Origin: Robiginitomaculum antarcticum DSM 21748
GTDB lineage: Bacteria; Pseudomonadota; Alphaproteobacteria; Caulobacterales; Maricaulaceae
Assembly: GCF_000365025.1 (NCBI RefSeq)
Contig: NZ_KB823013.1
Location: forward strand, 248,001-312,000
Direction of reading: 5' to 3'
DNA: 64,000 bases
Shown: piece after piece, positions 37,625-50,319 of the stretch
How the letters are laid out: each line of letters begins with the position of its first letter
Numbering within the stretch: the first letter of the stretch is position 1
Translations under genes and position numbers: made by a program
The notes under the pieces: generated by a model
The model's database searches: none
Seen by the model: the letters and a program-made list of their open reading frames with translations, nothing else
What the model was told of the DNA's origin: nothing

Positions 37625-38119
37625 ATGGCTGAACCCCTTGATGCCATAGACGCAAAAATTCTCCACCTGATACAGGCCAATGCGGCCCTATCTGTGGCCG
37701 ATATCGCTGATAAAGTTGGATTGTCCAGTTCGCCCTGCTGGCGGCGGATTAAACGTATGGAAGAATCCGGAATTATCAAATCCCGCGTAACACTTCTAGA
37801 CCGCAAACTCGTGGGCTTGGACTTTGAAGTGTTTGTCGCGGTTAAGCTTGCTATGCCTAACCGTGATAATATGGATAAGTTCGAACGCGCTGTCGGGCGC
37901 ATGCCGGAAGTTGTCCAATGCGCCATCGTCACCGGCGCTGTTGACTACATGCTGCGGGTCGTGACCCGCGATATGCATGCTTTTGATGATTTTTTGCGTG
38001 AGGTTTTATTGTCGACCGGACTGGTCAGTGACGTGCAGTCCCGGATCGTCTTGCGGCAGGCCAAAGATACAAATGCGCTACCGCTCGGATTGATCAGCTC
38101 GTCAGTACCCAGAATTTAA
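37625..38119 (+). CDS. bkdR: Lrp/AsnC family regulator, probable activator of the bkd operon
   Basis: The 164-residue protein starts at the ATG at 37625 behind GGAGG. It has an N-terminal helix-turn-helix (LSVADIADKVGLSSSPCWRR, then IKRMEESGII) and a C-terminal RAM domain ending in TGLVSDVQSRIVLRQAKDT. Pseudomonas BkdR is encoded in the same divergent place and activates the operon in response to branched-chain amino acids. The assignment rests on that position and the fold. Confidence 0.85.
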   Translation: MAEPLDAIDAKILHLIQANAALSVADIADKVGLSSSPCWRRIKRMEESGIIKSRVTLLDRKLVGLDFEVFVAVKLAMPNRDNMDKFERAVGRMPEVVQCAIVTGAVDYMLRVVTRDMHAFDDFLREVLLSTGLVSDVQSRIVLRQAKDTNALPLGLISSSVPRI

Positions 38120-38128
38120 ATCAAACGC

Positions 38129-38623
38129 TTATGCGCAAGGCAACGACGTTATCGGATCCGAATTGGCGTCTGCGGCGTGCACGCTTAATTTAGGCTTGAC
38201 CATGGCGTCATGCGTTACAGTCATAACAATGGCCTGATCAATCGGGCGTCCCGGAGCGTTCGCCGTGCGGGTTTCAGATATGAATAATGATGTTTGGCCC
38301 GGATGATCTAAATATACGCATTTTTTGTATACGGACGGGGCGCGTGATTTTGAGCCAAATTCATAACCTTGAATAACGCCCGATGTCTTAAAATCGATAC
38401 TCATTTCGCCGACAACGCCTTCGGTCTTGATGACATAAGGTGTGTTAGTTGCCAGTACTAAAACAGTTTGACCGGCAATAGCGGAGACTTCCGTGGCCAC
38501 TACGCGTTGGGGAATTTCTAAACGAACCGTATCGATAACCCCGGCATGAACCGGTGCGCCAGCCAAAATACCAACTATGCTCAGTAAAGCTGTTGTAACA
38601 TATATGGCGGCGGTTTTAGGCAT
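38129..38623 (-). CDS. Secreted hypothetical protein
   Basis: The 164-residue protein has a signal peptide ending near APVHA-GV. The rest looks beta-rich (VATEVSAIAGQTVLVLATN, GEMSIDFKTSGVIQG) with one Cys pair candidate (KKCVYLDH and the terminal SLPCA). No family is recognised. It is probably periplasmic. It ends 10 bases from the convergent bkdR gene. The long AT-rich stretch upstream may be its regulatory region. Confidence 0.65.
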   Translation of the reverse strand: MPKTAAIYVTTALLSIVGILAGAPVHAGVIDTVRLEIPQRVVATEVSAIAGQTVLVLATNTPYVIKTEGVVGEMSIDFKTSGVIQGYEFGSKSRAPSVYKKCVYLDHPGQTSLFISETRTANAPGRPIDQAIVMTVTHDAMVKPKLSVHAADANSDPITSLPCA

Positions 38624-38727
38624 GAGAGTTATTGTTTCGTCCTTGGTTTTATGTTGGGCATGCGGGTACGCATGCTGAAATTAGCTATTTAATGAGCCTT
38701 TGATATTGGGCTCGAAAAGGGAATTAT

Positions 38728-38762
38728 GAGACGCGCCAATAGTTTGGGAGTGGGCGCGTCTC
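38728..38762. terminator. Hairpin in the AT-rich interval
   Basis: GAGACGCGCC and GGCGCGTCTC form a perfect 10-bp stem with a 15-base loop, about 100 bases upstream of the secreted protein gene. It could end transcripts arriving from the MarR-type gene on the minus strand, although the flanks (ATAATT) give only a weak U run. Confidence 0.4.
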
Positions 38763-39145
38763 TAATAATTTTGGCAAATTTTTAGTTTGCCGACGTCTGC
38801 ACAGCCGGAACAATGGGAAAGAGTTTCGCCTGCAAATCTGTGATAAAACAGCAAATGATACCGAGAGGTTAACGTTGAAATTTCAGCTAAATTACTGTGT
38901 TTATTGCGTTTTCAATAAAATAGTTGAAAATTCAAACACTATTATTGAAAATTAAACGAGTTTTATTGAAAGTTCAATTATGTTTATATCACATTCAAGG
39001 AGTTAATTGATTTTTCATCTATAACTTAACTTGAGCATGGCAAAATTTAATGCTGAAAAATGTGCTTTAATCCAGACTATAATTAATAAGAGATAAATAA
39101 ATTCCGATTTTAATTTAAATTTCAAATAAATATTTTTCCAAAAGT
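38763..39145. repeat. AT-rich gene-free stretch with a 21-bp-phased site array
   Basis: No gene is visible. Three tandem 21-bp units begin at 38924, 38945 and 38966, each starting with an interrupted palindrome: TTGAAAATTCAA, TTGAAAATTAAA and TTGAAAGTTCAA. At 38987, in exact phase, the right half ATTCAA is kept. At 39007 TTGATTTTTCAT and at 38904 TTGCGTTTTCAA are weaker copies close to phase. A further match, TTGAAATTTCAG, is at 38875 out of phase. A 21-bp period is two helical turns, so bound proteins would line up on one face. Confidence 0.7.
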
Positions 39146-40258
39146 CTATAGCCGCTTCGAGCGGGGATGCACGCCCTTGCGATAGGTCGAAAATACGCGC
39201 GAGCGTTTACGCAAAATCATGAGGGCGGCCAGACAATTACGCATTTGCTCTTTTGACAGCGCCTGTCCCGTAATAATATCCGCCTCCCATAGTGAGCCCG
39301 ATGACGCAGCCTTATATTCATCAGCAATGAGGCGGCCATTATCCGTCAACCAGACAGGCTTTTCGCGCTCGTCCCGATCACTGACCACATGATCAGTATA
39401 CCCGTCGCGGCATAATATAGTTATGGCGCGCGTGACCGTAGCCGGATCATAACGCATAACCGATACAATTTCGTGGGGGGCTGAGGGCCTGTTAAGATAT
39501 TCAATGCACATCAAGATCCTGAGTTCACGAAGTTTAATTTTAGGGTCAGCTGTGAGTTTGCTGACGGCGTGGCGTTTAAAAAAAACTAAATAATCCCGAG
39601 ATATCCGGCGACATAGCAATTGAAAGACCAGTCCCGGTAAATAAGTTTCCATTCCGTATTTAAGTTTCGCGGCTTCCTGCGCAAAGGGCGTCGTATTATA
39701 TCCCTTATGCCGTCCTGACAGGTTCAGTCCTGCCAGCCGTTCAGCCCGCTCGTGCAGGACTAACAAGGCTTTAGTCAAAGTCTGGATGTCAACTTCTGTA
39801 AGCTCCGGCATATGGGCAGGAATAATTTCACGGCTTTCGCGTTCATAGGCGGTGAAGAACGCCGTCATAAAGTTACGGCCCGCAGGCTCAATCACAACCA
39901 CATTAGAGCGCGCATCGTGTTGGTGCTCTTCAAGATGTATCATTCCGGCGGCTTTAAGCTTCTGATTGACGCGCAGAATGGTCGCTGAATTAAACCGTGT
40001 AAGCTCGGAGAGGCGCGCCGGCGTTGCCGGATCGCTCAACCAATTGATGTGCCCCATGACACGAATATCACGCCAGTTCAATTTGCCGGGCTTATCCAGT
40101 TGTGAAATCACGCTCCGACGAATAAAATTCTGATGATCACTATCGATTTGGCTACACAGGATTTGCGCGCCGATATCCGATCGCGCCATCAGTTCATCAG
40201 GGACATCAATATCTTCTAATGTGTACATATACTCGATTACATCAGGCCATTCCCGCAT
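39146..40258 (-). CDS. Protein of two fused MarR-like winged-helix domains
   Basis: The 370-residue protein holds two similar halves. Half one (about 30-170) has the winged helix TPARLSELTRFNSATILRVN and then a wing EEHQHDARSNVVV. Half two (about 205-355) has SAPHEIVSVMRYDPATVTRA and a wing VVSDRDEREKPVWLT. Both halves carry the long flanking helices used for dimerisation in MarR proteins (for example DYLVFFKRHAVSKLT). MarR regulators are normally about 140-160 residues and work as dimers, so this may be a covalent pseudo-dimer. A later ATG at residue 11 is an alternative start. The ligand and targets are unknown; the phased array just downstream is a candidate target. Confidence 0.7.
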   Translation of the reverse strand: MREWPDVIEYMYTLEDIDVPDELMARSDIGAQILCSQIDSDHQNFIRRSVISQLDKPGKLNWRDIRVMGHINWLSDPATPARLSELTRFNSATILRVNQKLKAAGMIHLEEHQHDARSNVVVIEPAGRNFMTAFFTAYERESREIIPAHMPELTEVDIQTLTKALLVLHERAERLAGLNLSGRHKGYNTTPFAQEAAKLKYGMETYLPGLVFQLLCRRISRDYLVFFKRHAVSKLTADPKIKLRELRILMCIEYLNRPSAPHEIVSVMRYDPATVTRAITILCRDGYTDHVVSDRDEREKPVWLTDNGRLIADEYKAASSGSLWEADIITGQALSKEQMRNCLAALMILRKRSRVFSTYRKGVHPRSKRL

Positions 40259-50045: not shown

Positions 50046-50319
50046 GACCGTTAAATAGTGAGGAGAGTCGTTAATGTCGAGCCTGCTCGCCAGTCGCCAG
50101 TACCAAAACGGGACTCATATGACATGAAAGATTCGTAATAGAATCAATTCGTTAGCCCGGCGAGTCATAATTTGTTTACCAAGGTTACCGCGTTAACCAT
50201 CGTAAACATTTGTTTTTATTCACTTTTTTTGGAGCATTTTTGCATTGATTCAGACCTTTTTAATATCAAGCGTTTAATAACAGTCTGACTAAAGAGAGAA
50301 ACAATAAGGGACGCGAAGA
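50046..50319. promoter_or_regulatory. Upstream region of sciP with clustered GTTAACC half-sites
   Basis: Within 50174-50207 lie GTTTACC, GGTTACC and GTTAACC in direct order and then GTAAAC inverted. The last pair, TTAACCATCGTAAAC (50193-50207), resembles the alphaproteobacterial CtrA box TTAA-N7-TTAA with an imperfect second half. CtrA control of sciP is established in Caulobacter; here it is inferred. The rest of the region shows no gene. Confidence 0.45.

Follow-up and report, generated by a model that had tools for sequence, protein, structure and literature searches.

A phased array of near-palindromic sites as a candidate multi-site operator for a tandem MarR regulator in Robiginitomaculum antarcticum

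The DNA analysed here, referred to throughout as the window, is a stretch of 64,000 nucleotides of Robiginitomaculum antarcticum DSM 21748 (contig NZ_KB823013.1, positions 248,001 to 312,000). Within it, a 522-bp intergenic region (38624-39145) separates the gene of a tandem MarR regulator from that of a small exported-looking protein, both on the minus strand, and holds seven cores of the form TTGAA-N2-TTCAA (Table 1). The array formed by these cores spans 38875-39018 and lies 3' of the MarR gene, away from the MarR promoter. The exported-looking protein returned no match in Pfam or NCBIfam, and is similar by eye to a 185-aa and a 150-aa protein encoded at the array loci of genomes G002 and G394, respectively.

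Table 1. Coordinates of the array and of the features flanking it in the window.
Feature	Position	Strand	Basis
Tandem MarR regulator, 370 aa, two winged-helix domains, proposed binder	39146..40258	-	Pfam MarR_2/MarR, structural model, SarS match
Site 1	39007..39018	-	minus-strand ATGAAAAATCAA, 8/10; ungapped alignment with site 1 of G002
Site 2	38987..38998	-	7/10; plus-strand right half TTCAA intact at 38994
Site 3	38966..38977	-	perfect core, TTGAAAGTTCAA, 10/10
Site 4	38945..38956	-	TTGAAAATTAAA, 9/10
Site 5	38924..38935	-	perfect core, TTGAAAATTCAA, 10/10
Site 6	38904..38915	-	TTGCGTTTTCAA, 8/10
Site 7	38875..38886	-	TTGAAATTTCAG, 9/10; 29 bp beyond site 6, equal 29-bp step in G002
CTCTTTCCCATTG element, putative leader	38811..38823	-	TTCCCATTGTT common with G002; UCCCA unpaired in predicted fold
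10-bp GC hairpin, loop CTCCCAA	38728..38762	-	kept in G002, 2/10 pairs changed on both sides
Exported-looking 164-aa protein, likely regulated gene	38129..38623	-	resembles array-locus proteins by eye

Both flanking genes run along the minus strand, and when the array is read that way successive sites stand 20, 21, 21, 21, 20 and 29 bp apart; two of the cores are perfect, two match at 9/10, two at 8/10 and one at 7/10. The initial annotation had described three sites 21 bp apart, at 38924, 38945 and 38966, and the spacing is indeed exactly 21 bp, the middle site being imperfect because it matches at 9/10. The right half that had been seen in phase at 38994 turned out to belong to the 7/10 site at 38987, and the weaker copies noted at 38904 and 39007 (TTGATTTTTCAT, 8/10) are both in register, 20 bp from their neighbours. 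With a seventh site added at 38875, 29 bp from 38904, the array is confirmed as genuine and is larger than had been stated. Its best phased chain scores 16, compared with a maximum of 5 when the 522-bp intergenic region is shuffled 3,000 times with dinucleotides preserved, and step pairs without 20 or 21 give chain scores of at most 5. Core number alone is unconvincing in the window, where six cores at up to one mismatch were found against 2.55 expected and 6 of 100 shuffles reach six, so that the case rests on phasing and conservation. The complete genome to which the window belongs (G000, 2.77 Mb) holds seven perfect cores and one match to the reversed pattern. Across 50 sites in 13 arrays the consensus is T-N2-TTGAA-N2-TTCAA-N2-A, a near-palindrome of about 18 bp that lies within the roughly 16-20 bp of a MarR operator; the outer T occurs in 43 and the outer A in 28 of these sites, which were picked by their core, the two outer letters playing no part in the picking.

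Conservation was followed in genome G002 of the same genus, whose MarR protein is 45% identical to that of the window and is likewise followed downstream by an array with identical steps (20/21/21/21/20/29) in the same place. Between the two genomes 53 of 70 core positions are kept as against 34 of 74 linker positions (Fisher p 2e-4). Past the array both carry the TTCCCATTGTT element and the 10-bp GC hairpin, in which two of the ten pairs are compensated by changes on both sides. The common neighbourhood, with genes named by eye, comprises a SulP-like transporter, the tandem MarR, the array, the leader, the exported protein, an AsnC-type regulator and pyruvate dehydrogenase. Two additional genes separate the transporter from the MarR gene in the window, and a 372-aa exported protein and a receiver-like gene, both absent from the window, lie between the leader and the 185-aa protein in G002.

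The product of the MarR gene matches the Pfam families MarR_2 (7.2e-9) and MarR (1.5e-7), both above cut-off, and every NCBIfam hit falls below its cut-off. Two profile domains were recognised (28-177 and 196-363), and a single fused chain of this kind could cover one near-palindrome. An AlphaFold2 model built from three sequences reached a mean pLDDT of 82 and a pTM of 0.81. At E<=0.001 the sole PDB match of this model in Foldseek was SarS (1p4x; E 6.6e-4), with TM scores of 0.42/0.57 and an rmsd of 9.6 that indicate a domain arrangement which is either different or poorly modelled; SarS is also matched by sequence profile (E 2.2e-8).

The initial annotation had suggested looking for the core in the genome and its relatives. 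A search for two exact cores with start-to-start steps of 15-42 bp, which made no use of MarR, was run over 398 genomes of the order and returned pairs in six genomes, with none for the reversed-pattern control. The steps are 42 bp in G000, 41 and 21 bp in G017, 20 bp in each of G134, G258 and G394, and 15 bp in G356. In all five genomes with phased steps (20, 21, 41 or 42 bp) a MarR gene of one broad subfamily lies within about 2 kb of the pair. The loci differ in layout: in G017 five sites (21/21/21/20 towards the operon) precede genes for a 373-aa exported protein, a receiver-like protein and MarR; in G394 two sites are followed by receiver-like, exported and MarR genes; in G134 the order is tandem MarR, two sites and a receiver-like gene; and in G258 four sites (20/20/20) lie 3' of a convergent MarR gene and two more 5' of it.

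A profile built from the MarR proteins of six array loci (A1) served for the reverse test within the 137 genomes of the family, where it matched 33 genomes at E<=1e-10. Forty-nine MarR loci were considered, namely the six seeds and 43 non-seeds, many of them weak paralogs, and an array was called where the score was at least 7 and above all 60 shuffles. Arrays were found at the six seeds and at four non-seeds (G407, G418, G423 and, weakly, G430), G407 being the best-scoring non-seed MarR and carrying five sites spaced 21/21/21/20 like those of G017. The chain at L170 exceeds its 60 shuffles with a score of 4 and was not counted, and L152 (score 4, 1 of 60 shuffles) and L110 (score 4, 3 of 60) are near misses. 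No array above shuffles was found at the remaining non-seed loci; at several of the MarR loci this absence is not firm because contig ends cut them. When 32 of the 49 loci were scanned for phased palindromes irrespective of their sequence, TTGAA-type arrays came up in nine, and L162 showed one unrelated pair. Scanning genome contigs with the window MarR gave no match, and with alignment A1 gave 15 loci and no new arrays. At L143 (2935-4967, G356:C12) three consecutive MarR genes of the subfamily lack an adjoining array. In the tree of these proteins the array-linked ones are scattered rather than forming one clade (7 label changes; 25 of 500 shuffles are as low), and close relatives of array-linked MarRs can be without arrays.

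The number of cores also relates to the presence of MarR. Taking E<=1e-20 as the threshold for MarR presence, a value of our own choice, the excess of perfect cores over control has a median of 6 among the 23 genomes, out of 137, that carry MarR and of 1 among the 114 that do not (p 0.003). Core counts within genus g9 are 12-23 in the six genomes with MarR and 0-9 in the twelve without it (p 0.0004), a difference that persists when sites at the MarR locus are dropped (p 0.0004-0.0006); control matches are also higher in the g9 genomes with MarR (p 0.027), which shows that composition plays some part. Within-genus permutation of a 13-genome set, chosen after the data had been seen, reached the observed value in 0 of 20,000 trials. 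The excess is absent from the g19 subclade together with G430 (p 0.94), which speaks against a MarR binder, as does the position of the window array 3' of the MarR gene.

The MarR genes beside the phased pairs and the core counts of genus g9 make the fused MarR neighbour, already suspected in the initial annotation, the best candidate binder. The arrays might instead be bound by some other DNA-binding protein, for instance a global regulator whose gene lies elsewhere, with the MarR genes simply being some of its targets, an explanation that we consider rather unlikely. It would accommodate the scatter of array-linked MarRs over the tree, as well as phased sites seen without MarR between arfB and radA in G000 and at a peptide/exporter locus of G002, and imperfect phased sets of the same kind at L264 of G017 and at L221 and L228 of G258. 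It would also fit several genomes that lack a subfamily hit at 1e-10 and hold many cores (cores/control matches: G001 17/3, G094 16/2, G211 14/0, G434 10/0); five of the 17 in G001, all of which stay in the co-occurrence counts, are on contig C26, which looks phage-like, in a genome with a listed contamination of 5%, and were kept out of the evidence for the regulon. Against it stand the tracking of MarR presence by core number in genus g9 and the ORF lists examined, in which no other DNA-binding gene was seen by eye to recur beside the arrays.

A further candidate binder is the Lrp/AsnC-type regulator at 37625-38119, about 0.8 kb from the array, which has a similar gene at the G002 locus and belongs to a group whose members often use regularly phased sites. 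As binder it is very improbable and was rejected, since the linkage is not seen outside genus g1: no AsnC-like gene was found by eye at the array loci of G017, G258, G134, G394, G407, G418, G423 and G430, and in both the window and G002 the gene sits between the exported-protein gene and apparent pyruvate dehydrogenase genes. Still harder to credit is a partition, replication or nucleoid-organising site of the parS or iteron kind, which the regular period of about 21 bp in AT-rich DNA might bring to mind; the window lies on a 502-kb contig, a look by eye through the ORFs listed for 33-46 kb turned up neither Rep nor ParAB genes (five window proteins were run through Pfam), and cores recur upstream of ordinary genes. 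For this last reason the partition-like role that the initial annotation had offered beside operator and silencer was given up, and the operator role stood. A chance low-complexity repeat or DNA curvature alone, for which the AT-richness and unremarkable core count of the window could be cited, is refuted by the conservation of cores and spacing in G002 and by the failure of all 3,000 shuffles to match the chain.

What lies behind the arrays appears to include structured RNA. Leaders were taken as the 261 nt downstream of the last site, and most fold better than shuffles, with the exceptions of G134 (z -0.3) and G418 (z -1.3). For the window leader (38624-38840) the folding z is -5.4, and for the RNA of the G000 arfB-radA locus, where gene names were assigned by eye, it is -7.5. 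UCCCA occurs in 9 of 11 leaders (missing from G418 and G394), with 16 sense copies and one antisense copy where about three are expected, and 10 of the 16 are wholly unpaired in the predicted fold; these counts are support and not a test, because the motif was first noticed by eye in these leaders, some of which are homologous pairs. Between the leaders of G017 and G407 one of 57 predicted pairs is changed on both sides. A convergent MarR gene lies opposite the array in G258 and G423, with a terminator-like hairpin between them (by eye), and the G000 arfB-radA RNA also ends in such a hairpin, which makes small RNAs likely there. At three loci outside the window the array stands at the head of an apparent stand-alone small RNA. 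For the window, G002, G017 and G407, an RNA of this kind would instead represent a 5' leader or a product of processing. At L073 (8559-8830, G000 C3, flanked by arfB-like and radA-like genes) three sites, at steps of 20 and 19 bp, lie ahead of a putative small RNA that would form three hairpins with UCCC loops and finish in a terminator-like structure. Rfam gave no gathering matches in seven array loci; over 36-42 kb of the window the array region had none and two sub-threshold matches fell elsewhere.

Further elements stand directly behind some arrays. The last site is followed by TTGTTTTTATT-N2-CTTTTTT in G258 and in the G000 arfB-radA array, and similar T-rich elements follow the arrays of G017, G407 and G430. 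A T-rich 20-mer, TTGTTTTTATTNNCTTTTTT, is present at about 50210-50229 of the window, at about 8614-8633 of L073 and at G258:C28:2910-2929; in the four genomes searched, exact copies occur only after two arrays and upstream of a SciP-like gene, near position 50210 of the window, which we take from its translation to be SciP. These copies hint that one regulator may be common to a cell-cycle gene and the array units. A promoter and terminator scan gave nothing above chance.

Beyond the MarR loci, the proposed network would be marked by sites of the pattern TTGAANNTTCAA. From five genomes (G258, G394, G134, G017 and G407) 57 perfect cores outside the MarR locus were fetched, of which 27 are intergenic by a crude ORF call (at least 60 aa), so that only part of them can be regulatory; for G013, 18 cores outside this set are listed, one of which lies in L108/L090. 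Among the genes preceded by cores are RTX proteins, with the same RTX gene in G017 and G407, three-site sets before two RTX proteins in G258 and a four-site set before one in G017, a relative of the 373-aa protein (sub-threshold DUF11 match) and an M43-type protease. Small '-PNLF-' secreted proteins of three genera have one or two perfect cores upstream (L072 9452-9802, L103 5450-5785, L240 1085-2909). The 15-bp pair of G356, which has no MarR beside it, precedes a '-PNLF-' protein resembling the ones that follow cores in G000 and G394, so that this pair may belong to the network with a different spacing. A four-site array of G002 (L075/L079, ends of C71 and C211) precedes a double-glycine peptide with three LPIDIEV repeats, and a C39-peptidase ABC exporter lies on a contig overlapping the end of the peptide contig. 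This peptide had 12 hits, and among the nine loci examined (L089, L093 and L094 being left out) an array was present only in G002; a single perfect core lies about 140 bp upstream in G013, a single 9/10 core is present in G000, and the look-alike peptides of G000, G003 and G001 have no array. Several cores precede housekeeping-looking genes, which together with the intergenic fraction leaves the network only partly defined. Two other cores, one inside a LysR-like coding gene (L015) and one at the end of a nitroreductase-like gene (L016, also in G002), may for that reason be chance occurrences.

Receiver-like single-domain proteins recur at array loci (L071 6656-7060, L102 5605-6036, L105 7097-7546, L106 6874-7302); of three run through Pfam only that of G394 touched Response_reg, below cut-off, and two have weak NCBIfam response-regulator hits. 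A ParB_N-like gene just below the Pfam cut-off lies behind a site pair of G258 (L220 588-1355), and a similar-looking gene of G002 with no Pfam match lies behind one core (L076, from 2109).

The reading that we favour, and hold to be reasonably probable, is that the tandem MarR encoded next to the array, or a relative of this protein, uses the array as a multi-site operator. The protein array on one DNA face that the initial annotation had envisaged remains the best-supported interpretation, in an operator role, given the MarR genes beside the phased pairs in five of five genomes. Each site of about 18 bp would approximate the footprint of one MarR dimer or one fused two-domain chain, and the 20-21-bp steps would put successive proteins on one helix face and nearly in touch, so that they may bind cooperatively. 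Occupancy of the array would switch the minus-strand unit downstream of it, which consists of the UCCCA-motif leader with its GC hairpin and the exported-protein gene. Our guess is that occupancy activates or anti-silences this unit, because a T-rich, promoter-like element follows directly on the last site in five other arrays. A more far-reaching version, which we put forward as doubtful, would have the fused MarR polymerise on the two-turn-phased strip as a one-face filament and act as master switch of a lineage-specific network of Robiginitomaculaceae, in which a new family of regulatory RNAs with UCCCA loops is coupled to exported proteins (RTX proteins, small '-PNLF-' proteins and double-glycine peptides).

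No description of the motif or of a MarR of these genera was found in the open-licence literature, as judged by titles and the beginnings of abstracts. If the proposal is true, the sites would make it possible to trace by sequence a so far undescribed network that joins exported proteins and structured RNA in Robiginitomaculum- and Hellea-type Alphaproteobacteria. Cuckoo RNAs, alphaproteobacterial sRNAs with C-rich loops and the motif CCUCCUCCC, resemble the hairpins found behind the arrays in bearing pyrimidine-rich motifs; the motif behind the arrays, however, is UCCCA rather than CCUCCUCCC, with no Rfam match, and a known Rfam RNA, cuckoo type included, was rejected on that ground. Lrp/AsnC-type arrays share with the window array the repetition of sites on one helix face, but no AsnC-like gene is seen at the arrays of other genera. 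SarS of Staphylococcus aureus (SarA/MarR-type) also places two winged-helix domains in one chain, whereas it is 12% identical and comes from a different phylum; SarS is not known to use phased 20-21-bp arrays, and a literature search on its relatives found nothing. MarR proteins are usually seen as dimers on one or two operators, which in known members of the family mostly overlap the promoter. The repressors MarR, MexR, OhrR, ZitR and FabT have in common with the window the winged-helix fold, a near-palindrome of about 18 bp and a regulator gene next to its sites; the window differs from them in its six to seven phased sites and in that the array can lie 3' of the regulator gene. Compared with these systems, six to seven sites at fixed spacing beside a single-chain MarR 'dimer' would, if the proposal is true, provide a clean case of cooperative one-face assembly by the MarR family.
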